Assembly (NCBI RefSeq): GCF_039555335.1
Contig: NC_092642.1
Location: 12,808,743 to 12,872,742 of the forward strand
Direction of reading: 5' to 3'
DNA: 64,000 nucleotides
DNA from: Amphiura filiformis
Taxonomy: Eukaryota; Echinodermata; Ophiuroidea; Amphilepidida; Amphiuridae
In this document: in pieces, positions 21,997-52,549 of the stretch
How the letters are laid out: every line of letters starts with the position of its first letter
How positions within the stretch are numbered: the stretch's first letter is position 1
Notes under the pieces: model-generated
Told to the model about the DNA's origin: nothing
The model's database searches: none
The model's input: the letters and a program-made list of their open reading frames with translations, nothing else
Position numbers and translations under genes: made by a program

Positions 21997-22396
21997 CCCA
22001 GGGGGGTTTGGGGGCACATCAAAAATTTTTGGTGGGTATGCTCCCCCGGAATTTTGAGGTGGTGGGTCTTTGGGAGCTGACGGCGTACCGGTAAAAGGGG
22101 GTCTTTCGGAGCTGCGAACCGGTCTGTGAACAAGTAAAATGGGGTCTTTTGGAGCTGCGAAAAGTCAAAATCAAGGGCTTTCTTGACTTTTTTTGTTGAA
22201 AATCGCCTGAAAAAACAAGAAATATGAGGAATGAGCAATTTTTGGGTCTTTAAGAGCTGAAATTATCAAAATCAAGGGCCTTTCGGAGCTTTATTTTGGT
22301 CAAATATAGGGGGTCTTTCGGAGCTGCGAATCCAAAAAGGGGGGTCTTTCCGGGGAGCATACCCGTATGGTCATTTGTGTTGAGTGCCCCCCCGGG
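21997..22396. mobile_element. CCCGGGGG-ended non-autonomous element, 8-bp TSD, copy 1
   Basis: Starts CCCAGGGGGG and ends CCCCCCCGGG, flanked by direct repeats GAAATTAC (21,989-21,996 and 22,397-22,404). The interior holds several diverged units of GGGTCTTTCGGAGCTGCGAA. No protein frame. The 8-bp duplication fits hAT-like or P-like integration. The internal unit design is shared with the copies at 24,949, 40,024 and 52,047. A truncated relative lies at about 53,709-53,812. Confidence 0.8.
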
Positions 22397-22793
22397 GAAA
22401 TTACAACGTATTGTCTATGGAGCAGTGATACACATAATCATGCATAACTCGCAAACGCAAAATCGGAATCAACTGAAATTTTGGGAATATGCTTTTTCGT
22501 GGATATGTACTGAAAATGTCATAAAAAGAGGATGCTAGGATCACGAAATACTTCTTTAAGTGTGAAACATGCGTTATACTAGTCTCAGGTTTGACCAAGA
22601 ACACTAATTTATGCAGGATACCCACATGCAGCCTACGGTAGCTGTAAAAGACAGAAAACAGAAATGACAGAAATGACAGAAAAGACAGAAAAGTTTGGAG
22701 TTATGAATTAGAGAGTTGTCAGGAAGCTGTGGGAGTTAAAATGTTGGGAGTTAATGTTTAAAGGTGCATGTTCCATTAATTGATAGTTTGCTG

Positions 22794-22985
22794 GATTGCC
22801 ATCCTTGCCATCAAACTTGGTGGATGCGACTACCATCGGGTGCCGAAAATTGTCAAGGTCATGTCAAGGTCATCCCAGTATAGATTGCCATCAAACTTGG
22901 TGGATGCGACTACCATCAGGTGCCGATAATGGTAAAGGTCATCCGAGTATAGATTGTTGGATTGCCATTAAACTTGGTGAATGTG
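22794..22985. repeat. ~80-bp tandem repeat, ~2.5 copies
   Basis: Units of GATTGCCATCAAACTTGGTG plus a GGATGCGACTACCATC stretch and a GGTCAAGGTCAT-like end. A related single unit occurs near 53,872-53,920. Confidence 0.8.
22856..22872 (+). promoter_or_regulatory. DR5 nuclear-receptor element (AGGTCA n5 AGGTCA)
   Basis: AGGTCA at 22,856-22,861, spacer TGTCA, AGGTCA at 22,867-22,872. This is the exact consensus for a retinoic acid receptor response element of DR5 type. Each half is also a TCAAGGTCA extended half-site. It lies about 1.6 kb upstream of the copy A start codon, inside a transposon tandem repeat. It could be chance. Confidence 0.4.
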
Positions 22986-23599
22986 ACAAAATTTAGTTTC
23001 TGTAATTAAACACATTTTTGAGCTACAGGCACCTTAACAGTGCCACCCTTATTTTCAACTTCATGAATGCCTCCTTACCTGCCATGTCCGTGCACGGATT
23101 ACTTTCATCATTTCATGCACTCAGATAAACAGTGGCATGGCCAATGGGGGGGCATCAGGGGAAAAGGGCAGCTTTTCAGCCGGCCTAGACTTTTTTATTA
23201 AATTGTTTTCATCTAATTGTGGGTTAACTTGTGAACTTTGCTTATTTTTGGAATGGATATAGAGTCTTCAATTGTGTCTCCTGCTTTATCACAATTTGTT
23301 GTGCCATATAAATAGTAAAAGCTAATAAAATCTAATTGTGATGATTTGTGGGGATCAGCATCCACCCCTCTCCATGTACTCCACCACCACAAAGTTCTCG
23401 CCAACATCACATGCACATCAAATAAAGTAGCTTTAATATACTCACTGCGCCACTAAGAAACTCTAAAAATATGCAGGTATGCAAAACGAACCTGCTGTGT
23501 AGCAGTATGGTAGCAGCAGGTCCTGCAACTGGTCAAGGCTGTCTGGCTGTGTTACAGACCGTGTACCTATATTATCCATAGGGAGAGAAACTACTGGGA

Positions 23600-23715
23600 A
23601 CCACACACTCTCGGAAACACTCGCCGCCAGCCGCTTCGCGGCTGGCGGCTCGTACTCGCGGCTTCGCGGCTCGAATTAGCCGCTGCGCGGCTCATCGCGG
23701 CTTCGTCGCTAACCC
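23600..23715. repeat. GC-rich hairpin block
   Basis: Reiterated GCGGCT/AGCCGC units in otherwise AT-rich DNA. 23,623-23,649 forms a perfect 12-bp stem (GCCGCCAGCCGC) with a three-base loop. Located inside the MULE-like element. Confidence 0.75.
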
Positions 23716-24390
23716 CCCTTGATCGCGAGTCCGACACTATCTCGAGTCAGTCTTTGACAAAGACTAGCTAGAGCATAGACCATTTCAAACATGCTTTGAG
23801 GCACAGTCCAGACTTTTGTGACAGTGTTACATTTAAGGACCACATAGAGTGTATGGTCAAACTGATTCATTTCGACTCATTTGCATTCATTACTATCAAT
23901 AACTACTCTCTAATTCATAACTCCAAACTTTTCTGTCTTTTCTGTCATTTCTGTCATTTCTGTTTTCTGTCTTTTACAGCTACCGTGCAGCCTACGCCTA
24001 TACGGTAGGTCTGACCAAACACGGAGAAGCTGAAGGTCACTCTGTTATTTATCTTCTACCTGACCAGCATGCAAATCCCTCAGAATTTAGACAACCGCAG
24101 GTCAAGGCCGTGTATGCCCTATGTGTTGTTCGGTATCGGCCGCTTTAGGGGCAGAATGGATCCATACGGTGACTGTTCTAATATTCACTACTTTCAAAGA
24201 ATAATTTATATTATATGTAGCCTAATACTTTAGGATTGTGGAGACAGATACAGATACATGCATTGCAAGTCCGCTATATTTTGCCTTTTAAAATATAAGT
24301 TACCAATCATTGTGACATGCGCCCTTATTCACAAACACGAACTGCATGGGGTTTCCCAGCAAAACTTGTATTTTTTCATAGTGACCGTAA

Positions 24391-24464
24391 AGTATGATAT
24401 TTTGCATATGCAAAATTACATACTTTCCAAAAGTATGTAGTTTTGCATATGCAAAATATCATAT
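24391..24464. repeat. ~35-bp-arm hairpin with paired TTTTGCATATGCAAAA
   Basis: Two copies of the palindrome TTTTGCATATGCAAAA sit inside a larger inverted repeat centred on ACTTTCCAAAAGT. ATGCAAA is a POU/octamer-like core. A regulatory role is only possible, not shown. Confidence 0.7.
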
Positions 24465-24600
24465 TTTGCAAAGGTATGTGGTTTTGCACGCAGCACCGGG
24501 GAGGGTAAAATTGGTATAAAAAGCCGGAGCGGGGGAGGGGCGTAATCAATTTTGGCACACATTTACGGGGCACCTTTTAAATAACACGCTCTAAAATGCA

Positions 24601-24877
24601 CCGTTCACAAACACTTGTTAGGGGGCCCTGATACAAAAGGAGGGGGGGGGGCTTAATTTTTTACCCTTCAAAGGTGGGGGGGCTGAAAAATGACCACACA
24701 TTTAGTCCTGGCAAAATTGAGTTTATATGCTTTTCTATGGCTTTGACCCATAATTTTCATGTCAAAAAAAGGGGGAGGGGCTGCAATTTATGAGATCTGT
24801 AAAGGGGGCGGGGGCGAACAATTTTCGCGATGAATTTTTTTTTGCATCAGGCCCCCCTAACAAGTGTTTGTAAACGG
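24601..24877. mobile_element. MITE, family CCGTTCACAAACACTTGTTAG
   Basis: Starts CCGTTCACAAACACTTGTTA and ends with the inverse (TAACAAGTGTTTGTAAACGG). The interior is rich in G runs. 277 bp, non-coding. The same ends bound the composite at 37,835-38,678. Confidence 0.85.
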
Positions 24878-24948
24878 TCCCTAATGCACTATTGCCTGCT
24901 CACAGTATACGGGCTACGCTCGCACTCGCATAAATCTCTATCTAGACC

Positions 24949-25289
24949 CGGGGGGGGACTCACATAAATGGTCTGAAAAGGGGGTGTTTTTTAGGCAAGG
25001 CAAGTTACGCGAGTGACGCATTTAGGGTCTAAAAACACTGATTTTCAAGAATAAGGGTAGTTTTCTGAAACTGAACAACTTGTACAGGGTACCTTTTCAA
25101 GTCCAATTATTTAGGATACATTTTTTCATTTTTACTTGCCAAAAAACTCATTAGGGGGTCAATTTTATGTTAAATTACCTTATTAAGGGCCTAAATTTGC
25201 TGGTAGTGTAAAACTCGTTTAGGGGGTGTTTAAAGAAAATTTGGTCACGATGATGCGCATCATAATCATACTTGAGTGGCCCCCTGGGG
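24949..25289. mobile_element. CCCGGGGG-ended non-autonomous element, 8-bp TSD, copy 2
   Basis: 341 bp between exact 8-bp direct repeats TCTAGACC (24,941-24,948 and 25,290-25,297). Starts CGGGGGGGACTCACATAAAT and ends GAGTGGCCCCCTGGGG. The interior repeats TTAGGGTCTAAA/TTAGGGGGTC-like units. Related in design to the copy at 21,997. Non-coding. Confidence 0.75.
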
Positions 25290-25439
25290 TCTAGACCGGT
25301 ATACACATTGGGAACCAATTTGGCATGTGCAAAGGGAGGGGCAAATATTTTGTGGCTTGCCGACATGGGGGGCGGGGGTCACTTTTGGCAAGCAATTTGA
25401 ACATTTTGCCGGGGGGGGGGGGCTCGTCATTTTTTTACA

Positions 25440-26105
25440 TCGAGATGTAGTGTTTGCCTGTTGCGACGAATACAGCCATGTTTGATTGGAATTCTCATTT
25501 ATAATCAATTTTTTATATATGCTTTTTTCGTGGATATGTACTGAAAAATGTCATAAAAAGAGGATGCTAGGATCACGAAATACTCCTTTATTTGGCTTGT
25601 CATTATTTTTAATTACCTACAGCTGCATGAAAGTACACACTAGGATCACTAATGTCATTAGGTTTATGGTATTATGTTCAACCAATGCCAATCAGAATGC
25701 AAAAACGAATACAAACTCTGCAAAAATGCATAAAATTAATATCTGTAAAATTTAATAATAATAATAAAAAAAGTTTTGATTTACTTAGATGGGTAGGTTT
25801 TATTTAAAATGTCATTCCATTTAATTGAATTATCATGTTTGACAACTCGATAAAAGTACACAGAACCTAGTGTCCCTACCATCTCTTAACGCGTCGCACA
25901 GTAGCGTAAAATTCTCAAAATGTGATAAGATTTCTGCAACTTAAGTGTATAAGTTGTCGGCAAATTGTATAAAAAAAGCTGCGTACAAATTTCATTACAA
26001 AAGATTAAACACACTCTTCATGAACTAAATGTCTATATGCTCAACTTAAAACACTATAAGATGTTCTGTCGACAAACAGGGTGTTTTTTGTCTACAAGCA
26101 ATATA
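25440..26105. other. Unassigned intergenic DNA
   Basis: Contains a TTTTTCGTGGATATGTACTG stretch also present near 22,490, so part of it is a dispersed repeat. No gene was recognised. Confidence 0.45.
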
Positions 26106-27198
26106 CAGACGGAGTCACAAAAAGTGCAATTGTGCAAAGAATCAATCTTTATTTTATAACCAGATTTTTTTAAGGTTTTAAAACGTTAGGTGCATGGTAT
26201 ATTCATTAGTGACCTTGTGTCAAAAAACAAAATAATTAAAACTGACAGTTATGTATTTTTGACACATTTTACAGCGATACCCAATTTTAATGCTTGTCCA
26301 CGAGACATATAAATTTTGAATGCCAGCACACTCTTTGTAAGGTAGATTTGGAACAACTACCATTTTCTTAACCTCATTGGCAGCACATAATCTGTGTTGG
26401 CACTGAAGTAGCACCCAAAGTTTTATTTTCCCAGGTCTTGTATAAGTAGAGGAAACATTACTTTGTTGTTATTTTCACATTTACCCTTTCAAATGTGCGA
26501 GGCAAGGAATGCGCGCAATTTGAAGTGGTGTGAATTACAAAATATCCAGTATAAGTTGGATACATTGCAGGGAATTGGAAAAATTGGAGTTTGAGTTGGG
26601 CGAAGTAGGCAGGACTAAAGTAATATGTGATGCGATCAAGCAAAATGAAAATATTGATTTTGAGATATAAATCAATAATAGTATTCAACTTCCTTTGTAT
26701 TTTATTGTTCTGATCAACACTAAAATGGTCATATCTCTGGAACCATAAGTCCAATTATCATGATTATTATGGGGGACTCAGCAAAATAAAGCTCCGAGAA
26801 TGGCGCATATAATGCGATTTAAAACAGATTTTTGATTTTGATCGCCATCAGACTCATTTTGCTTGATCGCATCACATCAGAAAGTTAGTTTGAACCGAAA
26901 AAAGGAACTGAGCAAAAATCAACCTTGATTTAAAGGCAGTTTCAGATCTGGTGTCTTTATTGCGCATTGTGTGCTCCCGTTCAAAATACATGGTGCCTCG
27001 TGGACAAAAAGTAAAATAGGGTATCGCAGTAAAAGGACTCATAAAAATTAAACGGTAGCTGCGATTCACTTCCATTTTTCACAAAAGGTGAATATTGAGT
27101 GTGGCATTTATAAAAAGTTTCAATAATAGGACAGTTCAACTTGGTTCTTACGTGAATATTGATTCGTTGATCTAATACACTTCTTTGTACTCACCCTG
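26106..27198. mobile_element. Long inverted-repeat element, family CAGGGTGAGT...AAAGTGCAAT
   Basis: Left end has GTCACAAAAAGTGCAAT and the right end inverts to CAGGGTGAGTACAAAGAAGTG. Matching halves share GATACCCAATT-like and TTTGTCCACGAG blocks. The related element at 36,754-37,635 has cleaner ends. It has no intact frame and is an old non-autonomous DNA transposon, probably Tc1/mariner-like by its CAGGGTG ends. Confidence 0.65.
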
Positions 27199-27590
27199 CA
27201 TATGCATTTGATACCCAAATGATTTGATGTACTCATCATTAAGTGTATATATGCAACATTACACTATTTCCCCCCACAAATTAAGATGTTTAACGGTCTG
27301 AAAAAGAAGACGCACAGGGCAATTCTGCACAATTTCTGTTCGGTATATGGAGCTGCCCCATGCATGTTGCGGATTTTCTCGTCCAGAGGCTTTCCCCCAC
27401 AAATGACCGAAAAATTGGGAGGAAAGGGCGTTGCTAGAGACGTTGTGAGGCAATATTATTTGGTTGATTTCCGCCAATTGAATATTTGACTGATCAGCAA
27501 TGCGTTACATAATCTATTTCCCCTCCCGCCTATAGCGTCTGTAAACGTTGTTTGATGGTGTGTGTGTGTGGGGGGGTGGTCATTTGGTAT
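27199..27590. other. Unassigned intergenic DNA
   Basis: Short open frames only. A (GT)n/G-run patch lies at about 27,555-27,577. No gene recognised. Confidence 0.4.
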
Positions 27591-28500
27591 AAGTAAATGA
27601 AAAAAGGATAATAGCTCCCGGTAATAGCTCTATAAACATGATATGAGTGAAAGGGCAATGAACCAAAGCAAAGGACACTACGAGTACAACATTGGACACA
27701 ATCAAAGCGCAGAAAGATGGTGGAAGGACAAAAGCAAAAATCCGACAATCATTCAAAAAATGAATAGGTAAGGTTGAATTTGAAAGGACAATGAACCTAA
27801 TTATAGGACATGAAAAGGACAGGAAGGTGCAATAATGTTGTGACTGGCGCTAAACCTGTACGCAAACAAGAGGAAAATGAGCTAAACAAAGGGACAGATG
27901 CAGCTGAGTCATTCGTAAATGCTCGTAAATGCTCTTAGCCCCCCCCCCCCATGTGGTTTGATTGTTCTGCTCCGACCGACCATATGGAAAATCCCTTTAA
28001 AACAAGGACAGAAGATGAACACAACTGATGACGCTGAATCGTTCGTGAGAGCTTATCTAAAATCCGTTCAGACCTAAAAAGGGGTCTGTCTGTGAAAGAA
28101 GTAAGAGAAATCGGGGTCAATACCACACAAACCCGTTACAAACTTTGGAGTGAAACACAACCTAAACTGTAATTACAAAATTTAATTCAAAATAGACTAA
28201 TAGTTCTACGTTAAACGCCCAAGATATAGCCAGTTGGGTATCTTTCATTGTACCTCATTATTTCGGCTTAAAATTGACCGAAGGCCTTACGAATATTATT
28301 TCATCATTTTTGGTAAAGAATAACATTAACAAAATTTGACGGGAATCGCACATTATGATGTTAAACTTGACACACTTAATTATTAAAAGGACATTGCTTT
28401 GTATATATTCAAAAACCAATAGCAGGTTGAAAGGACGGTGAACCACTTTCTACCTGATGATGAACCAAATTAAATAAAGGACATAAATAAAGGACTGTAG
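27590..28500. repeat. Dispersed AAAGGACA-motif region
   Basis: The motif AAAGGACA, or GGACA with variable flanks, recurs many times without fixed spacing and resumes at 30,090-30,135 after the solo LTR. The LTR has therefore inserted into this region. Confidence 0.55.
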
Positions 28501-28504
28501 TGCC

Positions 28505-28770
28505 TCTAATGCTAATAACCAAGCAAACACAAAACGTTTTCGACATCATTCGCAAAAGGTTCTAAAAGGTTGTCAGAAAATGTCGGGTTATATAAAGGGT
28601 ATATTAAGGGTATAAAACGTTTTCATAACATTAAAAACATTTTTTGAAAACATACTGCATGCAAATATTTTAACATAATGTTATTTAAGTGTTGACAAAA
28701 TACTTGGCAAAAATGTTTGTAAAAATAGTTTACAATAAACATTTTCAAAACATTTTAAAAATGCAATAGT
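28505..28770. repeat. Dispersed repeat with GCAAACACAAAACGTTTT end
   Basis: Begins AAGCAAACACAAAACGTTTTC and is rich in AACATTTT/AAAATGTT. Related pieces are at 50,525-50,745 (opposite strand) and 62,975-63,060. Non-coding. Superfamily unknown to me. Confidence 0.6.
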
Positions 28771-28926
28771 GTTCACTCTAAAAGATATTTTCAAAGAAAA
28801 CCCTTTTCCTAAGAATACGCTGTCATGCAGAAGTGAGTTTTCTTTACAAGATTCTTAATTATTTATCATACTCCTACCAACATGAGGTCTACTCTAGAGA
28901 AAATGAAGAACGATATTAGGGCCTAT

Positions 28927-30085
28927 TGTGATGTGCCCTGAGTAATTTACAAAAATGTAATTTGATGATTTATCTTTGTTTACAAAGTTACATGAGTGAT
29001 GACATTTTGGGGAATTCCCCTCTCAAATTGAGCAAAACGAGCTGAATCATATCTAATTTGGAATATTTGGAAACGCCCTGAAAATGATGTAATGGGATTT
29101 CCCCTCAGGAAGTGATGTAATGGGATTTCCCCTCAGGAAGTGATGTCATGTGAAAGGTTAATATTATAATTAAGACTTTGGAATTCCCCAGATTGAGCAT
29201 AATGTGAAGGCAGTAAATGGCCCAGAATAGAATGGGGTTTTTCCCAAGCTTGGTATATAATAAGAAAATGTAAACAATGATTCACAGTTGATAGTGTTGA
29301 TCTGGGCTATGCTTACAGTCCAATTCCTTCAAAGAAAGGAAATTGCAAGCCAGAAATATTTTATGTAGTCAAAGTACTACTATTTACCAGTGTTGTCGGA
29401 GAAGATCTAGAATACGTCAAAGAACGTTATTCTTCCAAGAAAGGAAATATATTCTTCTGTCGACTTGCTGAAGTCTGGTATTTTGATTCAACGCAACTGT
29501 CAAAATAAGTGGGGACAACTGCATCGCAGTCCTGCTTCCTGAAGATATTGTGTGAAAGGTGGAAATAGCACCAAGTCTGGAGAAAGCAGCGCAAGGAGTT
29601 AAATTGGGAGAACTGCGCAAGGAGTTTAGCATAGGAGAACGGCGCAAGGAGTTTAGCATAGGAGGACGGCGCAAGGAGTTTAGTATAGGAGAATTGCGCA
29701 AGGAGTTGTAAACGTGATTGGAGAACACCATTTTCGTGTAAGGATTTTATACGCAAGGAGTTATCAATGCAAGTGTACAAAGGACTTCGCTGATTGTCGC
29801 AGGACAAGTGAATAGGGATATATTACATCAGTCGTCCAGAACATTACAAGAACTTTATGATCACCAAGAAGAAGAATGCTGGCTAAGTTCAAAATAGATA
29901 AAGAGTGATTATATTTGATTAATGTATATGTGCATTTGTAGTCATTATATTGTACCAAACGAAACTTGCTTTCAATTAAAGACTTAGATTTTGTTAGCTT
30001 AATTAAACAGTGTATTTGTGTTGTGCATTCGTGTGAGTTCGGGTAAAAGGTGATTTTGGCCTTGAGTCAAGTACGACTCGTAACA
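28927..30085. mobile_element. Solo LTR (retrotransposon fossil)
   Basis: 1,159-bp unit beginning TGTGATG and ending CGTAACA, flanked by the 4-bp direct repeat CTAT (28,923-28,926 and 30,086-30,089). A poly(A)-signal-like AATTAAA lies near the right end. It holds no coding part and looks like a single LTR left by recombination. Two internal tandem patches are visible: GGAAGTGATGTAATGGGATT units at about 29,095-29,155 and a roughly 27-base CGCAAGGAGTTTAG unit at about 29,590-29,715. A related truncated LTR piece is at 55,486-56,060. The family is not determined. The target duplication is still exact, so the insertion is probably not very old. Confidence 0.7.
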
Positions 30086-30236
30086 CTATATATAGACAAA
30101 GGACATTGAACTCAACCTGTAAAAGGACATCCACTCAGTGTTGCTATTCCGGGCTGTCATTCTCGTTCGTAGCATATCCTGGGAAAAATTCATTCAAGCG
30201 AAATAATAAAACCCAACACTGTTTTAAGCATGTTAA

Positions 30237-30294
30237 GGGCTCGGATAGCGTCGTTTACACAGTATTTTAGTGGGACCTGAGAGCACATCAGACA
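30237..30294. mobile_element. Terminal fragment of the TTAA-flanked palindromic MITE
   Basis: Begins after TTAA with GGGCTCGG and continues GAGAGCACATCAGACA, matching one end of the 13,151 and 20,377 elements. The rest is missing. Confidence 0.7.
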
Positions 30295-31215
30295 CACTGA
30301 AATCCAAACTGGAGTCAGGGTGACTCTGAAAGCAGAGTCCAGCCACTTTGCAACTCTATGTCTAAAATGACTCCATATTGGGAGTCATTTGATTCCCTTA
30401 ACTCCACGGAAGAGTCACCGTTGATGACTCTACACAGGACTCATTTGACTCCCAATATGGAGTCATTTTAGACATATAGAGGCGCGTAGTGGCTGGACCA
30501 TGGACGAAAGAGATAACAGACCGCGTAAAACCAGTCAAAGTCTCAGCATCACCCGATAATGAGAGCCAATTGTTCCTTGAAATGCGACAGGCATAACTGT
30601 CACCTACTTACCGCGTATTTGTATCGCGTTATCGCGAAGGCACGCAACGCTCTATTGCGTATACGCGAAGGCACGCAACGCTGGCGTGATTGTTAGACAC
30701 GGTACGATCGAACAATCGGCCCTCATGAATATGCGAGAATTCATAGCATACAATGCACGGCAACTTTGACTGGTTGTACGCGGTCTGTTATCTCTTTCGT
30801 CCGGTCCATGGGCTAGAGTAACCCAGACTCCATTTATAGAGCCACCCTGACTCCATTACAGGGTCACTCCGACAGTTCGAAAATAGCATAACATAATGAT
30901 ACACATAGATGTACATCAAGATAAAAATTCAAAGTATATAGCTACCGGAATAGGAGACTTTTTTAGGCGATCGTCAGACGACAGGATGAAGAAATTTAGG
31001 CTGAACCACCTTCCCTTAGGAATGGTGTCAACAGCCAGACTATTCCAAAGTCAGACTCTCTTGAAGAGTCATAAATTTCTTGACTCCGTCGACGGCTCTG
31101 AATGTAGAGTCAATTGACTTTACGGGTAGAGTTACTGACTCTCGAATGATAGTCAGGTGACTCCTTTTGAGAGTCAGTGCTAGTTTACTCCACTTTGAGA
31201 GCCTCTTGACTCCAT
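30295..31215. repeat. GAGTC/GACTC-rich inverted-repeat cluster
   Basis: GAGTC or GACTC, often as GAGTCA/TGACTC, occurs dozens of times in about 900 bases. Larger inverted pairs include 30,328-30,390 with 30,443-30,502 (sharing AAATGACTCC plus TTAGACATA). A second element is nested at 30,498-30,811. Not coding. Confidence 0.75.
30498..30811. mobile_element. MITE with ~45-bp TIRs nested in the GAGTC cluster
   Basis: Left end CCATGGACGAAAGAGATAAC continues CAGACCGCG. The right end is the inverse, reading TCTGTTATCTCTTTCGTCC. 314 bp, non-coding. The surrounding sequence has no such motif, so this is an insertion. Confidence 0.8.
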
Positions 31216-34080: not shown

Positions 34081-34137
34081 CAATCAAATATACAAAAACT
34101 ATAAAAGAAAGGAGCAAGAAAGAATAAAGAAATAGTG

Positions 34138-34373: not shown

Positions 34374-35702
34374 GGGTGTATCAAAATTAAGTATACAGTT
34401 TGAAAAATGCGGCTACATTAAAAAGTACGAGGTCTGTGGTCAAAATGTTCTAGTTGATAACATAATCAACATCTTGTCCTCCTGTAGCTGAAAAATCACT
34501 GGCGTGTGACCAATAATAAGGATTTGGTGGTTACTTTTGTGAACCGAGTACAAAAAGCAGTTGCGCGAAGTCAATAAAAATCAAAACAACATACAAATCA
34601 CAAAAAAGTCTCACCACTTTCTTTACTGTTTACAGTTATTGACAGTTTTAGTCTTGGTCTTCCATATGCCCACAATTTTTCTGTATGCAGATTTCGGCTA
34701 TTCTCAACATGGCGTTCACACCATGTCTAATGAGAGGTCTGTCCTGCCAGAGAATGTCAACTTGTGCAATTATGCGTCTCTGAAGTACATCAAGGTCTGC
34801 AGGAGGACTTGGGAAAAAATTAAATGCAAACTCTGCTTCATCGCCAATGATGAAATCTTCCAGGAAACGTAGGGGATGGGCAAGAAGCCACTGACAGAAC
34901 ACAGTGCGACGTTGGTGATCTGCTTGCTGAAGTTGATGTCTCCTTATCGTCTGATAGGGATGAAATTGCAAGTCAATGATATTCTGTTAAAGGTTGCAAG
35001 GATGTTATTCCAAGTCCATTTCGACGGCAGCTAATTTGACCTCCTGCTTGCCCCGCCTGCAGAGTGTTACGGACTGCTAGGATATTAGCAGCAGATCTTC
35101 CAATTCGGGGGCGACCATAATGTTCTCTGTTCAGATTACGACTCGTTCCAGTTATTTTTGTAAATAGCGCCTGGGGGACGTGCATTTGGGTACTGCTGAC
35201 GGAATCTCCGAAGTACTTCTGCTGGACAATGGGTGCGATGGTACACTGCAACAAGGAAGGCCCTTTGCTCTGGCGTGTAGGCCTACTGTGGAGTATCCAT
35301 TTTAATGTTGCTATTCTCTTGTCAAGTAAAACCTAGCATATGTAAGGAGATAGTTGCCCGGATTTACGTCAAATGTCACATGTTATGTAATGCACACATG
35401 CACAGGATTGGAACCCTAACAATGAGGACAAATGATCTGTACACCTGCATGTTTCTCTTGGCTGCACAACAATAACATGCACCGGGCATTTAAACCCAAT
35501 TGACTTCGCACAACTGCTTTTTGTACTCGGCTCACAAAAGTAGCCACCAAATCCTTATTAATGGTCACACGCCAGTGATTTTTCAGCTGTAGGAGGACAA
35601 GATGTTGATTAAGTTATCCACTTGAGAAATTTGACCAAAGACATCATACTTTTTAATCAGGCGGCATTTTTCAAACTGTATACTTAATTTTGATACACCC
35701 TG
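34374..35702 (-). mobile_element. Mariner/IS630-like transposon, DUF4817-type transposase relic
   Basis: Inverted ends of about 210 bp with termini GGGTGTATCAAAATTAAG are flanked by TA. Minus-strand frames 34,973-35,254 and 34,648-34,971, plus a YTPEQRAFL stretch around 35,255-35,300, follow the order of a family I know from invertebrates: a DUF4817-like N-terminal HTH, NREHYGRPRIGRSAANI, SCRRNGLGIT, FHPYQTIRRHQLQ, then FCQWLL and the first catalytic Asp in IIGDEAEF. The catalytic C-terminal half is missing and there are stops between parts. 1.33 kb. Confidence 0.8.
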
Positions 35703-37834: not shown

Positions 37835-38678
37835 GGGCCCGTTCACAAACACTTGTTAACACATGAAAACTAATATGAGATACTGTATTAGGATCACATA
37901 TTAAGTATCATGTGAGTATACTCTTGTACTCCAGAAGACAGGATCACATATTAAATATTTGACACCATAGAATATAAAAACTAGTAATTTGATAAGTTAA
38001 AATAAGATTTTTAACGGAATAAATCTAAATAATATGATTATGCAGTTTATTCCGTTAAATATTTACCCATAATTTCCCTCATTCTTCAGGCCCTGCCCTC
38101 TATCGGGTGCTAATTTAAAGTTTAAGCTTGATTGCTATTGTTTCTTTGTAAGCCTGCGGCGCAACCTTGAACAATATTGTCTCTTTGTAAGCCTGCGGTG
38201 CAACCTTGAACAATATTGTCCTTGAGATAACGCCCCGTAGCCACCCACAGCCAGCCCCATACCTCATTTCAATTTTTAACATACCCATATCCTGCTTTTT
38301 ATATTCCATAGTGTCGCACATTTAATATGTGATCCTGTCTTCTGAGTACAAGAGTATACTCTCACATGATACTTAATATGTGATCCTAATACAGTATCTC
38401 ATATTAGTTTTCATGTTCTCCTACCCACTATGGGTGTTAAGGGAGTGATGCAAAAAAAAATTATCGCAAACATTTTTCGGGGCCCCCCTTTACAGACCTC
38501 AAACATTTCAGGCCCCCGCTTTTGACATGAAAATTATGGGTCAACCCCATAGAAGAGCATATAAACTCAATTTTCCCAGGAAAAATTGTGGTCATTTTTT
38601 TCAGGACCCCCCTTAGTAGGGTCAAATTTTTTTTTTTTTTGCATCAGCCCCCCTAACAAGTGTTTGTGAACGGTCCCT
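37835..38678. mobile_element. Composite: CCGTTCACAAACAC MITE split by another foldback element
   Basis: The outer ends match the MITE at 24,601-24,877 (left at about 37,839-37,858, right at about 38,430-38,673). A different element (37,861-38,416) sits just inside the left end. Confidence 0.78.
37861..38416. mobile_element. Foldback element with ~95-bp arms, nested
   Basis: Arms 37,861-37,955 and 38,321-38,416 are inverted copies starting ACATGAAAACTAATATGAGA and containing a twice-repeated GGATCACATATTAA. The interior has a tandem duplication of TTTGTAAGCCTGCGG (about 38,140-38,220). Confidence 0.82.
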
Positions 38679-38689
38679 AACCTTCACTC

Positions 38690-40015: not shown

Positions 40016-40023
40016 GCTGAAAT

Positions 40024-40397
40024 TCGGGGGGGCTCTCACTTTGAGGTGACGCGTATGTAGGGAGACACCCCTTTTCACCATCGCTGTCAACCAAAGACCT
40101 CATTACCAGCACGTGCTCTGTCGCCCAAAGACAGAGCCCATCTGAACAGCAACGAGTCGTCCATCACTGATTTTCACCCAAAGACCCCATTAAAATATTC
40201 TCACCCAATGCCCATGCAAACGGTCCCTCTCTCACCCAATGACCCCATATTTTGTACACTGATTTTGCTCTTACAGAATGCCAAAAGTCATGCTCTCAGG
40301 CTTGCAACGACCTTATATTTTGCTATCACCGTGTGCCCCTTTAATACTGGCCAGCCCTACACCTGTATCCATTTCATATTGAAGTGCCACCCCCCGG
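40024..40397. mobile_element. CCCGGGGG-ended non-autonomous element, 8-bp TSD, copy 3
   Basis: 374 bp between exact direct repeats GCTGAAAT (40,016-40,023 and 40,398-40,405). Ends TCGGGGGGGCTCTCAC and GTGCCACCCCCCGG. On the minus strand it carries repeated GGGGTCATTGGGTGAGAG / GGTCTTTGGGTGAAA units, as in the 52,047 copy. Confidence 0.82.
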
Positions 40398-40959
40398 GCT
40401 GAAATGTAACCGTTTGGATACAGTTTTTTTCTTTAAAACAATCATGTAACATTAGCATAGTAAGCAAAGAAAGATTAGGAAAAGTAAAGCAAACTCGTAC
40501 TGCATGGGACGAAAGAGGGTTCAGTTAGGAAATCATGTTGTGGTGGTTGTTGGAGCAGAATTATTTTATTTAAAATATAGGTTTGTTAAGGATTGTTTTC
40601 CAAGTGGACATATTATGATAAATATAACTGTCGGTTGTAATACCTGACAATATTGCATTCCTGGTTATTGATTTAACGGAAAGTCGCCGCGGTTTTAAGA
40701 GCATTTGAACTTGTTTAACATGCTTAAGCGACACAAAAGTCACGGTGTATTGGGTGTTTTATTAACCCAATTAGTTTGTATTTCAAACAAAGATGACAAG
40801 CCTATACGGGATTTTAATGATTTTGGTAAAGGTAACTGTTTTAAATAACATGTCGCTCTTCACCTGGATCATAGGTCTACTCTGCGATCGTAATAGCGCC
40901 ATCTCTCTATCAGGTTCTAAGAGGCGGTAATCTGGTTTAAGCAATAGAAAGGTCTCAAC

Positions 40960-43143: not shown

Positions 43144-43421
43144 GCCATAATTGAAAATTTCTAATGCCGTCAATTATATGCCCATATTTAGAAAACATGT
43201 ATTTTAATATTAAAATAATTAAATAGGTTAAACCAAATATGGAGGTGTCCAAAAGTATGCTTTATAGTCATATAAAAAGGTTCAATGAATCAGAATACGA
43301 TCCTGGTATCAACACTTATGTTACTAAGTTGAGGAGATTACGTGAGCATGTACAGTAGTGCTCTTCTAGTTGTTTTATATTCTTTGGTTTAAACCAACCT
43401 CAGTCGCAGGGTTAAATGTAT

Positions 43422-43427
43422 TTTATT
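43422..43427 (-). terminator. Candidate poly(A) signal, ALDH copy B
   Basis: AATAAA on the minus strand, about 100 bases 3' of the stop, in the same context as 5,258-5,263 in copy A. Confidence 0.5.
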
Positions 43428-43528
43428 CTGAACTATCGGAATAACAATTATTGTTGTATTTAATTACAACCTTGAAGCTACCAAATCAGGACCTCAGCCA
43501 ACTTCCAAAGGACGTTGTTATGCTCTGT

Positions 43529-46500
43529 CTAAGAATTCTTCTCTGGAATTTTAACGATAACCTATAGAAATGGAAAGAAGCAAAACATGTATATATTTTA
43601 ATGTTTGGGTATAGCAAACTAAATTGAAATAAAATAAATCAAATACCACCAGACTACAATAATTTGTTTTTCCTATTCTACTAATAAACAGATGTTAATT
43701 TTTGTCGCGTCTAAGTGGCTGTTCAATAATTATGAGACCGGAGGAGGGGAATCAAATTTCAAAACGGCGTGCCAAAAATATTTATTGCTTTCCCCACTTT
43801 TGGCTTGCCAAAAAAAACTCTTTCCCCCCTCCCCCATATGGCTCATAATTATTGCCCTTGTTAAACGAGATTAAGCCTAGATGATGCAGGTTAAGTTTAA
43901 TAAATCAGCTATTTTCCCAAAGAGCTCAAATCAAATTTTAGGTATCTTGATACATGAAATAAAGTTATTTATTTTACCATATAAACCTTATTATCTATAT
44001 ATCTATAATATCTATTATTTAAATATGATGTGAATGGAACTCAAGTGTGCTATGCCAGAGGACAATGTTTGAAGTAATAGAAATGTCGATGTTACTTACG
44101 GTTTTGATCTCTAGGTACTCCATAAGGCCTTCCATTCCGCTGTAAATACAACAAATGACAATCAGTAACACATGAGTTGAGATTTAGGGCGAGTTTCTCG
44201 ACAGAAGTCTTAATAAGTCTTAGTCTTGAGGCTACTAAGCCTAGCCGTTAACTCTAGCCGGATTCCTTAAACGCAAATTCAACCTAGTCTTAGTGGCCTT
44301 GCAGGCTTAACGCTTGAAAACCGTGTCCATTTATACCAGATGTGCATATGCTGTTGTCCTTCTTATTATCCGTCTTATTATCACAATGTTACCAACGCAA
44401 ATCTGACTTTGGTGTGATGGAGCCATTGAAACTGAACTACAAATACGTATCGGCAGCTACTATTAAAATAAAATATCGTTAAGAAAAGCAGTATTCTCTG
44501 CATATTTTAACATCAACTGGACTTACGGTTCACAATACGGCACATTATCAAAAGTTTTTCCACAGCCTTGATCGTTTGAATATAATGTTATTTGAATCAT
44601 TTTATTGCCTGTAATCATGATTCGTATATTGGTATGTCACTCGTTTGTAGCGACAAGACTATGAAATGAATGCGGGGTATTTATACTATACATACTTTTC
44701 TCTTCCGACTCCAGACATCTTGTAACCACCAAATGGTGTAAGAGCTGATACAACGAAATACGTGTTAACCCTGAAACGATATGGAAATATTACATTTTCA
44801 ATTAACAACAATCTAGATTGTCGTCAATACATACATTTAAATAAGATGATCTAAATAAATATTTTTAGAGTAATTTGAGGCGAGGTACGACGGGGCATAT
44901 TAAACCTCTTTACCCTGAAGTATCAAAATATAGCTCAATTTTAGCATAGAATTTAGTCATTACGTATGGTCTTTTTTTTATAGCTTGTATTGCTGATTTC
45001 TATGAATACACAGCGGCTAATGGGTGCTATGTGTTTATGTCACTGGAGCTCTGAGCTATCTGGGTGCAATTGGTAATTTCATGGAAACCAATGAAGATAT
45101 GTCTTTTTTCCGTTAAGTCATCGACCATCATGACCATTGAGCACACTTACCAAACAGTTCCTGCCTGTACGGTATTGGCAATACTCAATGCCTTATCAAT
45201 ATCTTTAGTAAACACAGCAGCTGCAAGACCGTAGGTCGTGTTGTTAGCTCGATCAATTACTTCATCTAATGTCTTAAATTTGATGATCTGCTGCACTGGT
45301 CCAAATATCTGCATTGTCAAAGAAAGGAGATATTACAATCTGTCTATGGACTCTGCTTGTAATGAAATGGACTGTCTCAATCGAATGTAATTTAGGACTA
45401 TATGTGAATAACCTAACATAGAATATAGTTTGTTGTTACAAATGTCTTGAAAACGTCTGCTGCCTTTTAAAGTTGAGAATACAGAACTGCATATATACCT
45501 CTTCTTTAGCAACTCTCATGTCGTCTGTCACATCAGAGAAAACTGTTGATTCAACAAAATATCCCTTGTCACCAATACGCTTGCCGCCACATTCCAATTT
45601 GGCTCCTTCCTTTTTACCACTCTCAATCAATTCAATGACTTTATCCAGACCGTCTTGGTCAATCTATAAAAAAAAAGTGATTCTGAATTAGAGGCAATTA
45701 TAATACACAATTTAGTTTGGTCCTCTAGCACCATCGGCCACTCGCTTATATCGAGATACCCATATTGCTTTATATACAATTCTATTACCCCCACGACCCA
45801 TTATTCAAAATCGCGCACTGTGATTTGTTGAAACGCGTCACGTGACAGACCATTAATTAGCGATAAAGTGTCAAGGGCAACGAACTTTATGTTCTTCTAT
45901 CATCACAGCGCACAGCAGAGCGCACAGCACACCTGCTTATGTAGGGAGAATGGAATGTCAGGGGTGTGTTATTGTATGTACATACCTGCTTATGGGGGAG
46001 AATGGAATGTTAGGTTGTGTTATCATGTAGGCTACATACGCTTTGGCTACGCTTATGCGCTCCACCTTGAGGTAAACAACTTGAAATATTTGGGCAAACA
46101 TTTTTATATTTTCTCTTTAAATCACACTATTTTGTGGTAAATAGAATAGAAATAAAGGGTGCAGCATTATCCTTTACACGCAAATAATGTGTCCTCGGCA
46201 GTAAAAACGTTTAAATAATGGGTTCGGCTGCGCCTCACCCATTATTTACGTTTTACTGCCTCGGACACATTATTTTCGTGTAAAGGATTATGCTGCACCC
46301 TTTATTTCTTAAATAAAAAACACTAATCGGTAAAAGTTAATACAGTTTCCCCTTTGGTACCGATAGAACAGTGTCAGCGGACCGTTAACAGCGTTACAGG
46401 GCTAAAACAAATGTTATCCCTAGCAAATCATGTAAAGGCCGATGCAAGTGGGGTTATAGCGCCTATTGACTGGATACCTAGCACCTCTTTTATTAATCGC

Positions 46501-49500
46501 ACAACCCTTACCTGTGGACCCCCTTCTATTGTCTTATTAAATGGATCTCCAACAGTTCTTTTCTTTGCCCTTGCTACGCTTTTCTTAACAAAGTCGTCAT
46601 AGATTTCCTCTTGAACAAATGTACGTGAGCCAGCGATGCAGACTTGACCACAATGGAGGAATACGGCTTGATGGCTCATCTCCACGGCATAGTCCACTGC
46701 ACGTTAAAGGAAAACAAAAGTATTACATTCATTTTCATCAAAAAAAAATATAATGTTATACCTATTATAGTAGTCTTATTCCAATGTATGAGCCTCATGG
46801 CTTGATCTTCATTCTCCCAGATAATACGAATAGTTAAGGGTGTCAAAATCGGTATTTTGTAATTACCAGGGTTTTTACCGTCTATTATACGATGAAAAGG
46901 TAGTATAATTTCGCAGCCATTAAATCGTCTTATCTTCAATGTTTGTCGCAATCTCTGCATACGGACGAATATCAAAATTACTATAAAACCGCCCCTATAT
47001 CATAAGTCGTGAAATGCAATACGCGATTAACCGATCGCGGGTAGACATGATGTAAAAATGGCTTCGCACTGAAAACCCCGAATGCTGAATATCTATGTAG
47101 AAATTTATATTGTTGCTCTCTAGGCTGCCATTAAAAAGTAGTCTGTATGAGGAGACCGTACCACGAAGATTATGATCAACGGTATCATGGTTATGTCTCA
47201 ATTTCTCTCACTACCACAGGTCCCGTTTCAGGAAACATTACGATTACGATTTGTAATTTTCAAGGTTATTTAGTCACACCTGATGACTCTGTAACGTGAC
47301 TAATTTATAACTTTCTGTGTCTTACAGTCACAATCAGCGAACACAACGTTGGGGCTTTTCCCACCCATCTCTAGAGCAACTCGCTTCAGGTTTGTTCTGC
47401 CAGCAGCCGCTTGAATAAGTCTTCCGACCTAGAAAACAACAGTATAACAGAACAATTGACTAACTTTAAGAACACTGTTTTCTCTCATGGTATAATGGAA
47501 ACGAGATAAAAGTAAATTCTGATAGATAGAGATGACGTGGAGATATAAGAGGCTACCAGCCCGGATATTCCTGCGAATGGACTCACAACCCCATTTGCTA
47601 ATCAAAATAGGAATATATTTGTCCCACGTTTTACCAACCTCGGACACATTATTCATGCATAAAGGACACTGCATAAATCACCCATATATATATATATATT
47701 TATGAGATGTACGTTTACGGTGTTTAACGATACCTCTGTTGATCCAGTAAATGAGACAACATCAACATCCATGTGTTCACTGATAGCGGCACCAGCCGTG
47801 GGACCATAGCCAGGTACAATATTGACAACACCAGGTGGAAATCCAGCCTAAAATTGCAAAATGGAATTAGAAAAATCAAATCACGATGTTTGTTGTTCAT
47901 GTAGTTTTGTAATGTTATATTTCATTCATAATGACGTCTTTTTAAGTGAGCATGGGTGTACGCCAGCACCGCTTTTAATATTGTTTAAGCAAAACTTTCG
48001 ACACCAACCTCCTTGATCAGTGAAGCAATATAGAGTGCCGTCAGTGGTGTCTGCTCGGCAGGTTTAATGACTATCGTGTTCCCGCACACGAGGGCGTGGC
48101 ACAGCTTCTTAGCCAAGTTTTGGGCCGGGAAATTCCATGGAATTATTGCACCAACAACACCGACTGGTTCATATCTCGTGTAGCAGAAGTAATCACCATA
48201 TGAGAAAAATGTACAGAAATCGTCAGTGAAGAAGTTGTTCATATAGGCATCGTAATGCTACCCTCACCAGTATAAACTCGTGTTATTAACATCAAGAACC
48301 ACTTTGCCAAAAGTATTGTATTTGCAATATTGTGGTCAAGGGTAACCCCAGGCCCCAGCCAGGGGTTAGGGGAAGGTTTTCCTATACTTAAATACCAAGA
48401 GGTCCACCTTTTGATACAGATCTTGTCCATCTTTGAATTTTAGGGCTGCGTTTAAGGATATATTATATTAATTTAAGTTTATTCCTTTCATAATTATTAT
48501 TTCTTAAGAGGTGGTAGAATAGCTTGTTGTTTTCATAATGAGCAACTTGTCTATCAAACTTTATGCTAATTTAGCCCGCCGTCTACACTGCCACTTTCTC
48601 CAACATATTCCGAAACTTTATTGAAAGCTTACCTATGGGAATGGTTTTGCCATGTATTTTATCAGCCCATCCGGCCATAGAGCGCACATCGTTACCAATT
48701 GCTCCAATAACTTGAGTGCTAAGGTTGATAACCATTCCATTGTCGAGAGTTTCAAGTTCCTTATGAATCAAAGAAAAAGCAAACCAATGGTGATCAATAC
48801 GTTGCCTCTGTCTTAAAACAAACTTTCCCTTTGAGTCCCTCCTGAGGTTCCTATCTGACAGTACTAAATAAATAGAGGCGCTACTTCGATCGCAAAAGTG
48901 AGGAAAGTGTGAGCTCAGGACCATGCGCAGATATGCGCTGACAAATAGTGATTCTCGTATAAATAAAGCAGACGACGCCGCAATTGAAAACTTTCCCACC
49001 TATGAGGGGGGCACATCCCTCCTCAGACACCCCCTAAGTAACAATGACTAATGACTAATAGGCCTAATGGTCATTATGTCCCCCACTTTCTAAAACGGAT
49101 TTTTCGCCCATGCTTTTGACTGTAAGAAATTGTAACGTCGCTCTACCGTAGGCCTATATCATTTATGGCGTGTTCCTGTTGGGTTATGTTAGACACTGTA
49201 TAGTTGATCTGGTGTCCTACGCGATGTCATTTGTAGTGACATTGAGCAAGAGCCAACGACCAAATATATATTTTTAACTTACTCTGATGTATACTGCGTC
49301 TCTGTCAAGAAGGTCAGCTAATTTTAACAGCAAGCGCCCTCTTGCCGAAGCGTCCATTCGCCGCCATGTTGATCCAAGTTTGAAGGCCTCACGCGCTGCC
49401 TTGACAGCTAATTCGATATCAGCCTAAGAAAAAGAATTTCAGAAAATATAAAAGAATTTTCAGAAAATATTTTATATTATAATTTCTTTTGTATACATGC

Positions 49501-51725
49501 AGAAATATTTCTTAGTTATTACCAGCAAATGTTCAGGAGTCCATTTTAGAAAGCTTTTAACCATCGATCGTATTGTAAGTAACCCACAGTGTCGACAGCC
49601 TCTAAATAAACATTTTTTCCCTGCAATGAATCATGTTCTAATACTCCGTTGGGCGTTGGTGAGCGACGGGCGATTGGTATTTCACCAATAAGTTATAGCT
49701 TGCTTTTCCGAACGCAAGCAAAGAAGTCATATCTGATTGGCTAGAAACCGATCGCTAGATCGCTCAGTGATGTAAGTACAAACTCGATATCAGATGTAGA
49801 GATGTATTGAATTCCATTTAAATCAATATTCTATTATTGACGCAGATAAAGAAAGTTGTATAGTGTCTCACAATGGTGCATTGTATTATAGACTTGTGAT
49901 TTAATATTCAATATAGCACGTGGATCTGAGCTGAATGCAGTAAAATATATATGTTTAAAGAAAAATAGAGAGAGAAATAGTATTGACCAAGAAGAACTAA
50001 GACACCTCGTCAGAGGCAAGCAACGTCACATCACAGAACAGTGATGGTGGACAGTGGACACACTAAGAATAAGGATAGACTGACAAAACTACACTTGACT
50101 TCATGAGAGTGTAAAGAATTAATCCATGAAAACAAGAGTAGCACGAGATTAAAATAACAGGTCTCCCGCTCATCGGTTAATGAAGGGCCGTCGGTAGATG
50201 GAAGGCATCTTTTTTTTTTTTGCTCTTCGCTTTTTCAAACCATCGATTCAGAAATCCTGGCTACGCCAATGATTATAAGTGCGATGTGAATTGTATCCAA
50301 ACAAACAAAATGTCACCTGATCAGGTTGGTTTTTAGCCGTTTCCAAGAAATACATCAGAGCCAACAACATCGGCTGATGACGAGGAAGTTCCTTGAAAGC
50401 GCTCCCAGTAAGCGAAAATAAACAAGTGGTGTTGAAGTTTAATTTAATTTACTTTCAAACATCAAACAAAATAAATAAACAAACGAGTATTGGTTTTGGT
50501 CAACCCGTTATAATATTTAAATGTCGAGTTACATAAATATCACGAAAACAATTTTAAAAACGTTTTCTATGAAAAAAAACCCCCCAACCACAGCAAAATT
50601 TTAGAATTGCTGTCAAAATGTTGGCAAACATTTTTGCAAAATATTTTGTCAAAACTAAATAATTTTCTTAAATGTTTCATAAATGTTATTAAAACGTTAC
50701 CCTTTATATATCTCGACGTTTTCTGGATGTTTTTTGGATACTAGTAGGCCTATGCAAAATTGAGACTCCTTCAATTTACACGTATTCAGGAGGTTTACGG
50801 AATAAATGCCATGCATACAAAACTAAGATGACATTTATTCCATAACTTAGCTTCAGGAGCATAGCATGTTGATGTTGAATGAATTTCAATTTTGGCCTAT
50901 TATGTCTACCTTGTCTCCCTCTTGCACGTCACATATCTTCTCACTGGTTGATGGATTCAAAGTGACAAATGTCTTGCCACTTACTGAGTTGACAAACTCA
51001 TTGTTGATGAATACCTAATGGATTAAAAACAAGATTAGCACAGGGTTAATGAAAGGTTAATGGTAGTGTAGTAGGCCTACATAATACTGTGAATACAGTC
51101 ATATCAAACGTTTTCAAGATGATACTTATTTTGGAGAAACTAAGCATAGGCCTATAAAACGCACAAGCATTGCTCAACAACTAGGCTACTTACTTATTTA
51201 TGAGCCTTATTTAAATGCATCATATCAAAGGCGAGTGGTGACTGGCGTATTGCATGATAAAAAAAGTAAAAGAGGCAATCCTGTACATTTTTCAACCCAA
51301 ATAGGGCATAGGGCCTATAGGCCTATCTCAGCTCAAGTCAATTTTTAGAACTGACAACCAGGTAGGCCTACGAACAGATCAGAGCGGGGATCAGAGTAGG
51401 CCTACCAGTGTCTATGATCAGTAGGCCTACTGGTAAATCATTTAAATAGGATGGCCTATGGATTCATCCTCACTAGTTGTATAAAAATGTTACACAAAAA
51501 CCTCAAAATAAATTATGTGGCCTCTCAATGCTACTATGGTGATACAACGCAATGGCCGCCAGTTCCAGCACAACTCGGAGCCCCGAGCACGTGAAAATGT
51601 AGGCCCCCTACCTTTTGATATATTTTGCAATTAAAATATTCAATTTTTTTTTTCTGATTTCCCTCGTACGTCTCCAGATATTATTATTTCCCTACCTGTG
51701 TGTACTTGACTTCGGGTGCAGTCAT
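43529..51725 (-). CDS. ALDH1A: Aldehyde dehydrogenase, class 1 (retinal dehydrogenase type), copy B
   Basis: Close tandem paralogue of copy A with identical exon lengths. Exons 5' to 3': 51696-51725, 50910-51014, 49283-49423, 48633-48759, 48009-48199, 47734-47847, 47326-47428, 46512-46696, 45499-45663, 45151-45308, 44696-44770, 44100-44139, 43529-43561. All frames are open over 488 codons. The product begins [10 protein letters not shown] and ends [10 protein letters not shown]. It keeps Asn157, Lys180, Glu256 and Cys290. Differences from A cluster in exon 4 ([17 protein letters not shown]), exon 5 after PWNFP ([17 protein letters not shown]) and exon 11 ([19 protein letters not shown]). All splice sites are canonical except the acceptor before exon 5, which reads AT (48,200-48,201) where A and C have AG. 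Without it, correct splicing of exon 5 is doubtful, so B may be a young pseudogene or carry a sequencing or allelic error. Intron 1 is only 0.68 kb. Confidence 0.85.
43717..43862. repeat. Short inverted-repeat element in intron 12 of copy B
   Basis: Left GGCTGTTCAATAATTATGAG and right inverse GGCTCATAATTATTGCCC around C/G runs. Counterpart of 5,535-5,705 in copy A. Confidence 0.6.
46149..46309. mobile_element. 161-bp palindromic MITE in intron 8 of copy B
   Basis: Ends GAAATAAAGGGTGCAGCATT and its inverse. The arms pair almost to the centre (CGTTTAAATAATGGGTTCGG). Absent from the matching intron of copy A. Confidence 0.82.
48009..48199 (-). CDS. ALDH1A: ALDH copy B exon 5, acceptor site altered
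   Basis: 191 bases, frame open, encoding [14 protein letters not shown] through KPAEQTP. The preceding intron ends ...TTTTTCTCAT instead of ...CTCAG. The next AG downstream, inside the exon, would give the wrong phase. Confidence 0.8.
50165..50280. repeat. Dispersed repeat ending CCTGGCTACGCCA
   Basis: GGCCGTCGGTAGATGGAAGGC, a T run, GCTCTTCGCTTTTTCAAACC and ATCCTGGCTACGCCAATG occur in the same order at 53,255-53,640, where the middle is longer. Non-coding family, unknown class. This copy lies in intron 2 of ALDH copy B. Confidence 0.6.
50525..50745. repeat. Dispersed repeat, AAAACGTTTT family
   Basis: Reverse-oriented relative of 28,505-28,770 with AAAACGTT near both ends and many ATGTTT/AAACAT blocks. 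Lies in intron 2 of copy B. Confidence 0.5.
51696..51725 (-). CDS. ALDH1A: ALDH copy B, first coding exon
   Basis: Encodes [10 protein letters not shown] and ends CAG before a GTAGGG donor. Exon and upstream flank match copy A. Confidence 0.85.
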
Positions 51726-51930
51726 ATTTTTCTGTTACTTGCAGAACCAATGCAGAATAGTAGGCTCTACAATTTTTAGGAGGGCCAAAGTATACCAATG
51801 TGATTAGAGTAAGCACGAAATGGAAAAGAGAGCTGAGTCAGGTTTGTTTCTGTGCTTCGATTTCACAGATCGGTTCATGTTGTTTTATTGTACATTACGC
51901 GCTGTAACGCGTGAGCTGTAGCTATTGCTA

Positions 51931-51939
51931 TATTATATA
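51931..51939 (-). promoter_or_regulatory. Candidate TATA and CCAAT boxes, ALDH copy B
   Basis: TATATAAT on the minus strand about 210 bases upstream of the start codon, with ATTGG (inverse CCAAT) directly upstream at 51,942-51,946. The TATA position is shared with copy A. Confidence 0.35.
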
Positions 51940-52046
51940 GGCCAATGTACTACATACAATGTGTGCGTGCATGTACATTCATCATGTTCATAACAAATGA
52001 CAGAATCCCGGTTCAAAAGGTAAGGGACTGTTCAATAATTATGAGC

Positions 52047-52549
52047 CCCGGGGGCACTTCAATTTGAAATGGATATAGGTGTAGGGCTGGCACTTTCGCA
52101 CTAAGGGGCATTCGGTGAGAGCAAAAGGTAAAAAATATGGGGTCATTGGGTGAGAGCATGATTTTTGGCATTCGGTGAGAGCAAAATGTAAAAAATATGG
52201 GGTCATTGGGTGAGAACATGACCTTTTTTTTAACGGAATCTTTGGGTGAGAGCCGAAACAGCAGGACAGAAACCTCGAAAATCGAATTTCTAGTTCTAAA
52301 TGGCTTCAAATTTCTTTGTTTTTTCAAAATAAGTGACAAAATCAGTGATAAATGAAAGTTGCAGTTAAAATTGAACAAGTAAGGGTCTTTGGGTGACAGA
52401 TCAAATGAAAAAATAGGGGGTCTTTGGGTGACAGAGCATATGTTCGTAAAAAAATATGGGGTCTTTGGGTGACAGCGACGCTGAAAAAGGGGGTCTTAAC
52501 AGCCCTACATACGCGTCACCTCCAAAGTTGGAGTGCCCCCCCCCCCGGG
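52047..52549. mobile_element. CCCGGGGG-ended non-autonomous element, 8-bp TSD, copy 4
   Basis: 503 bp between exact direct repeats TTATGAGC (52,039-52,046 and 52,550-52,557). Starts CCCGGGGGCACTTCAATTTG and ends GGAGTGCCCCCCCCCCCGGG. The interior is several units of GGGGTC(A/T)TTGGGTGA(G/C)AG. Frames here are by-products. Confidence 0.85.

Follow-up and report, generated by a model that had tools for sequence, protein, structure and literature searches.

Four short elements with 8-bp target-site duplications are probably non-autonomous cut-and-paste transposons of at least three sequence families

Four short elements in a 64-kb window (the whole stretch of DNA that was analysed, 64,000 nucleotides) are best explained as non-autonomous, MITE-like, cut-and-paste DNA transposons inserted with an 8-bp stagger, a reading to which a probability of about 0.86 is given; this figure includes neither an assignment to the hAT superfamily nor a role for the repeated units in the interiors. 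It is supported by the border duplications, the tip pattern, the inverted ends of E1 and E4, the orientations of E3 and E4 and a probable empty site. The case for transposition comprises four insertions only, E1 to E4. For annotation, they are useful as additional non-autonomous transposons in a genome of animal type.

E1 (21997..22396, + strand, 400 bp) lies between two copies of GAAATTAC (5′ copy 21989..21996, 3′ copy 22397..22404) and E2 (24949..25289, + strand, 341 bp) between two copies of TCTAGACC (5′ copy 24941..24948, 3′ copy 25290..25297). E3 (40024..40397, − strand, 374 bp), a member of the E4 family in the orientation opposite to E4, is bordered by GCTGAAAT (5′ copy 40016..40023, 3′ copy 40398..40405), and E4 itself (52047..52549, + strand, 503 bp) by TTATGAGC (5′ copy 52039..52046, 3′ copy 52550..52557). 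These target-site duplications, which are listed without strand, are exact, constant in length and varied in sequence in 4/4 elements of the 64-kb window. The original prediction had given these four coordinates with perfect, mutually different 8-bp direct repeats and was right in all four cases; its further claim of transposition is well supported by the distinct exact duplications, the common tips and one probable empty site. A fifth feature, F5 (53708..53795, − strand, tip at 53708), is a truncated copy of the E1-type right end. It has no partner end and no duplication in the window, and was rejected as a complete copy on these grounds. Other repeats occur close by: a perfect 30-bp palindrome at 21965-21994 terminates within the 5′ duplication of E1, and a 74-bp repeat (96%) is found downstream of E1 (22487-22558) and of E2 (25517-25590).

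The G-run and C-run ends that had been noticed from the letters are real. The tips of E1 read CCCAGGGGGG..GGGGGCAC and CCCGGGGGGGCACTCAA, and the ends of E4 read CCCGGGGGCACTTCAA and CCCGGGGGGGGGGGCACTCCAA; the first five bases of the eight tips are CCCAG, CCCGG, CGGGG, CCCCA, TCGGG, CCGGG, CCCGG and CCCGG. For the comparison of ends, F5 contributes a ninth. The window contains six matches to a pattern of at least four G, zero to three bases of any kind, CACT, zero to two bases of any kind and AA, and every match is an element end (6/9 ends); the three ends without it are, in window orientation, those on the left of E1, E2 and E3. Inverted similarity between the two ends of an element was compared with 500 mononucleotide shuffles, of which none reached the observed value for E1 or E4, 23 for E3 and 94 for E2. 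When the outer 14 bases are removed, the corresponding numbers are 0 for E1, 67 for E4, 159 for E2 and 262 for E3, and by this second comparison E1 alone has a firmly established inverted repeat further in than the tip. There, a second inverted block, GGGTATGCTCCCC(C)GGAA, is present at 22034-22051 and 22347-22364, and the inverted ends extend over at most about 50 bp. In E2, only the tips are inverted by eye, the whole-end match not rising above the shuffles. Short palindromes near the tip give a weak hint of a quasi-palindrome like that of Hermes: they are reached by 15 of 500 shuffles at the right end of E4, 66 at its left end, 208 and 222 at the left and right ends of E3, 3 and 50 at those of E1, 439 and 4 at those of E2 and 260 in F5, and the palindromes at the left end of E1 and the right end of E2 sit elsewhere than those at the other ends.

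The single family proposed in the original prediction is not borne out, and the elements fall into three or more sequence families, whose tips are alike. E3 and E4 are 77% identical over 174 and 123 columns, in opposite orientations. Outside itself, E1 matches F5 only (53709-53795, 88.5% over 87 columns), and E2 has no match elsewhere in the window at a threshold E of 0.01, resembling E1, E3 and E4 in its tips only. Related copies within the 64 kb are thus the pairs E3/E4 and E1/F5, with none for E2. In a collection of viral contigs, one single-unit pattern matched once, in a phage-like contig and within a gene, and another had no match; two patterns made of an end or of an end plus a unit also had no match there. 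A two-unit pattern matched one viral stretch and six stretches of a collection of genome contigs: the three that were read are repetitive stretches of bacterial or viral contigs and lack the ends, and the four from Streptomyces and Microbacterium were dismissed by title alone. None of these eight loci was taken as a relative. The scanned collections consist of viruses and prokaryotes, and the blank therefore says little about distribution in animals. In the open-access literature that was searched, no account of E1 to E4 was found; the strings CCCGGGGG, GGGGGCAC and GTGCCCCC combined with transposon words had no match, and five unit strings gave no transposon title among the matches listed. 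A repeat library may already contain the elements, and the Repbase 'DNA8' naming, used for unclassified DNA transposons with 8-bp duplications, would be the natural bin for them.

The stretch preceding E4 offers a probable view of its target before insertion. The sequence at 51647-52051 is paralogous to 21199-21634, and TTATGAGC occurs once in this diverged paralogue (21199-21636), at 21622..21629 (listed without strand), aligned with the E4 target and without an element. Beyond the 8-mer of the paralogue, 6/7 bases are those of the right flank of E4, after which the homology stops, and the next five bases, CCCGG, are the first five bases of E4. This short match on the right, together with the CCCGG shared with the start of the element, is the reason why the empty site is inconclusive; 21622-21629 is nevertheless its probable position, and the alignment suggests that E4 inserted after the segmental duplication. 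No comparable paralogue was found in the window for the flanks of E1, E2 and E3.

Other duplicated and repeated sequences lie in the window. Segmental duplicates with aldehyde dehydrogenase exons on the − strand extend over about 5000-12700, 43150-51050 and 59100-63860, the Pfam Aldedh family being matched by the frames at 8440-8760 and 60220-60699. Inverted repeats of 85 bp, 98.8% alike (22635-22719 and 23902-23986), bound a 1.35-kb stretch that has, by eye, GCAGCCTACG as a direct repeat on both sides, or GCAGCCT if ACGG is taken as the start of the end. This stretch (22635-23986) is read as another terminal-inverted-repeat element. Another short G-rich family is represented by two copies in opposite orientations (24600-24884 and 38435-38680, 77%), whose ends resemble TTAGGGACCGTTTACAAACACTTGTTAGGGGGCC and for which no clean duplication was seen by eye. 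A 670-bp element is present in two copies (13147-13815 and 20373-21038, 93.6%), each nearly one inverted repeat. There are also self-inverted stretches at 62016-62505 (about 490 bp, 76%) and 46148-46309 (about 160 bp, 87%), and perfect simple arrays of TTTC (58478-58681, 51 copies) and TGTAA (2941-3032, 18.4 copies).

Repeated 16-bp units are found in the interior of three elements. The reiterated GGGTCTTT-type units that had been predicted are present in E1, E3 and E4 and absent from E2, the interior of which contains loose G-run repeats without such units. The pattern GGGTCTTTSGGWGMYRGY, with at most three mismatches, occurs at 15 places in the 64 kb (four in E1, three in E3, seven in E4 and one in F5), for an expectation of 0.38 obtained from 100 shuffles. 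A score matrix finds seven units in E1, five in E3, seven in E4 and none in E2 at a score of at least 9, and 18 matches in the whole window at a score of at least 12, one of them outside the elements (47079, − strand); because the matrix was built from these units, the counts are not independent and the identity between units is partly selected. The one-sidedness of the units is independent of the construction of the matrix: at a score of at least 9, all units of an element face one way (7/7 in E1, 5/5 in E3 and 7/7 in E4) and none is found on the opposite strand, those of E3 being on the − strand and those of E4 on the + strand. Mean pairwise identity, with the selection just mentioned, is 0.83 in E1, 0.79 for four of the five units of E3 and 0.86 in E4, compared with 0.32, 0.31 and 0.40 in the 16 bp before the units and 0.30, 0.21 and 0.33 in the 16 bp after them, which is near chance.

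The form of the units varies with the family and with their place in the element. E1 has seven units of the type GGGTCTTTCGGAGCTG, the last one weak, which mostly end in CGGAGCTG or a near variant, and the units of E3 and E4 end in GGGTGA(G/C)A. In both E3 and E4, left units are mostly CATT..GAGA and right units CTTT..GA(A/C)A; in E4, these correspond to GGGTCATTGGGTGAGAG for most of the left units and GGGTCTTTGGGTGACAG for the right ones. Two units depart from this: that of E4 at 52236 is mixed, and one of E3 is deviant. In E4, a repeat search brings the number of unit-like copies to eight by adding one at 52168. The first units lie about 59-68 bp from the left tip, and the spacing between units is irregular (27-147 bp). 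Overall, the units look like conserved motif islands, family-specific in form, rather than plain tandem copies.

A set of direct repeats lying by chance beside G and C runs, with no transposition at all, is one alternative, given that runs of at least five bases number 42 for G and 39 for C in the window. Pairs made of a G run of at least five followed, 60-8000 bp away, by a C run of at least five number 217 in the window. When an 8-mer is sought that is common to both 16-bp stretches outside the runs, it is found in 4/217 pairs, which are exactly E1 to E4; this loose criterion also picks out 4/1414 control pairs, whose runs are far apart or wrongly ordered. When the 8-mer must lie 0-4 bp from the run, 3/217 pairs are retained, E2 failing because its repeat lies five bases beyond the C run; the controls give 1/1421 far or wrong-order pairs, 0/189 swapped-run pairs and 113/200,000 random draws, in which draws past the window end count as misses. 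As a set, the duplications exceed chance, and with the common tips, the kinship of E3 and E4 and the probable empty site also standing against it, coincidence is extremely improbable. Nor is it at all likely, though slightly less remote, that E3 and E4 encode a small protein in their long antisense stop-free frames. These stretches cover 112/124 codons in E3 and 149/167 in E4, lengths reached by 44/500 and 5/500 first-order Markov sequences, respectively, and a single BLASTP comparison of the two frames gives 41% over 51 residues (E 6e-05). However, the two frames coincide in register in 102/320 aligned DNA columns, roughly a third of them, and do not do so in the final block of 90 columns. 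The GGGTCTTT units are stop-free in every antisense frame, a property ignored by the null model, the GGGTCATT unit has a stop in one antisense frame, and the longest antisense frame of E1 is ordinary (214/500). The coding scan, in which all 28 stop-to-stop frames of at least 100 aa were compared with Pfam at curated cut-offs, gave no match above cut-off for the E3 and E4 frames, and register, stop-free units and Pfam led to rejection of the coding role. Among the same 28 frames, none has a transposase domain; the families above cut-off are aldehyde dehydrogenase (two frames), RVT_1 (one) and zf-RVT (one). The presence of aldehyde dehydrogenase exons together with pieces of non-LTR retroelements suggests that the host is an animal. 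At 34648-35332, where a Tc-type transposase had been suspected by eye, Pfam gives no match.

Two alternatives concern what the elements are rather than whether they moved. One holds that the units are irrelevant to movement and are decayed tandem duplications within ordinary MITEs. It is a credible minority view: duplication does occur, as E4 holds a real 60-bp tandem duplication (96%), and E2 has border duplications without such units. In the published sections cited here, some Ds1 elements move without the Ac hexamers, at least three of which are present in 17/331 Ds1 (PMC3260210), and the Hermes authors consider that auxiliary binding inside the ends is unlikely to support transposition in cells (PMC10368747). 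Irregular spacing and near-chance flanks (0.21-0.40) around units that are 79-86% alike speak against decayed duplications, as do the left and right variants common to E3 and E4, bar the mixed E4 unit. The other alternative keeps the same kind of element and replaces the hAT enzyme by a transposase of the P superfamily, of Zisupton (KDZ) or of another non-hAT group making duplications of about 8 bp. The duplication length fits hAT, the P superfamily (7-8 bp) and Zisupton alike. P superfamily elements have a THAP-type transposase and Zisupton a KDZ transposase, PF18758. The rule for hAT inverted repeats is that position 2 is A and position 5 is G; among the eight tips, 0/8 have this A and 7/8 this G. 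The Ac duplication consensus is nTnnnnAn. That of Buster is given as nnnTAnnn in the cited part of PMC3517528, and 0/4 duplications fit either consensus in full, four being too few to decide. In the same direction, the sources compared report 8-bp duplications for Zisupton (PMC12730594) and 7-8 bp duplications for Galileo of the P superfamily (PMC4168063), and ATTAC is common to the E1 duplication, GAAATTAC, and the Galileo consensus, GTATTAC; the duplications of E2, E3 and E4 are unlike this consensus. A non-hAT enzyme is a possibility to be kept in view, at something less than even odds.

If the elements are non-autonomous cut-and-paste transposons, as preferred here, a transposase supplied by an element outside the window would recognise the ends, excise the element and join it to a target whose two strands are cut 8 bp apart, and the 8-bp duplication would arise on repair; we infer the enzymatic steps, and the duplications are observed. 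The outer tips, CCC-GGGGG-CAC, would be the sites of cleavage and joining. On the model of Ac and Hermes, the 16-bp units and the inner inverted block of E1 are putative additional transposase-binding sites, which would raise affinity and allow the left end to be distinguished from the right. The moving enzyme is most likely of hAT type, at about even odds: length, duplication and layout fit, and the rule of A at position 2 and the duplication consensuses do not. That the elements work like hAT MITEs is more secure than that they belong to them. It is unlikely that the CCC-GGGGG-CAC ends define a separate transposon group, in which the transposase would read a polar array of same-facing 16-bp units, the direction of the array would distinguish the ends, and the transposase would have changed together with the unit type as the E1 and E3/E4 families diverged. 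If the unit arrays are transposase-binding sites, the elements would form a natural series for testing how subterminal arrays set end polarity, because E1 has a unit type other than that of E3/E4, and the left and right halves of E3 and E4 largely differ in unit type as well.

Comparison with known systems, limited to the parts of the literature cited, places the elements among familiar forms. An 8-bp stagger is described for Hermes (PMC10368747) and Ac (PMC3260210), and maize Ds1 (<500 bp) and Drosophila Mar (610 bp) are likewise short, noncoding elements with 8-bp duplications and inverted tips (PMC3260210, PMC3517528, PMC10368747); the Mar tips read CAG(G/A)GGTAGGC, compared with CCC-GGGG here. 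Zisupton resembles E1 to E4 in the length of its duplication, and relatives of Zisupton are reported in lancelets and other animals (PMC9297572). Galileo resembles E1 to E4 in its duplications and differs in its inverted repeats, which are long and internally repetitive (PMC3573991, PMC4168063), whereas the elements described here have inverted ends of no more than about 50 bp, in E1, and repeat units that are not inverted. Repeated subterminal motifs are also found in Ac, in some Ds and in Hermes, where they have mostly one orientation per end (PMC3260210, PMC10368747). In Ac, the repeated hexamers bind the transposase (PMC3260210), and in Hermes, which needs about 220 bp of each end and has a quasi-palindrome directly inside its left tip, repeated motifs are read by BED fingers (PMC10368747). 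The argument in the original prediction that a tandem interior is unusual for hAT MITEs is therefore weak, although the share of Ds1 with three or more Ac hexamers is small. Compared with hAT elements, the differences are a long unit (16 bp), copies that all face the same way within an element, and four duplications that fit neither hAT consensus. E1 to E4 are ordinary in kind, with a polar unit array in E1, E3 and E4.
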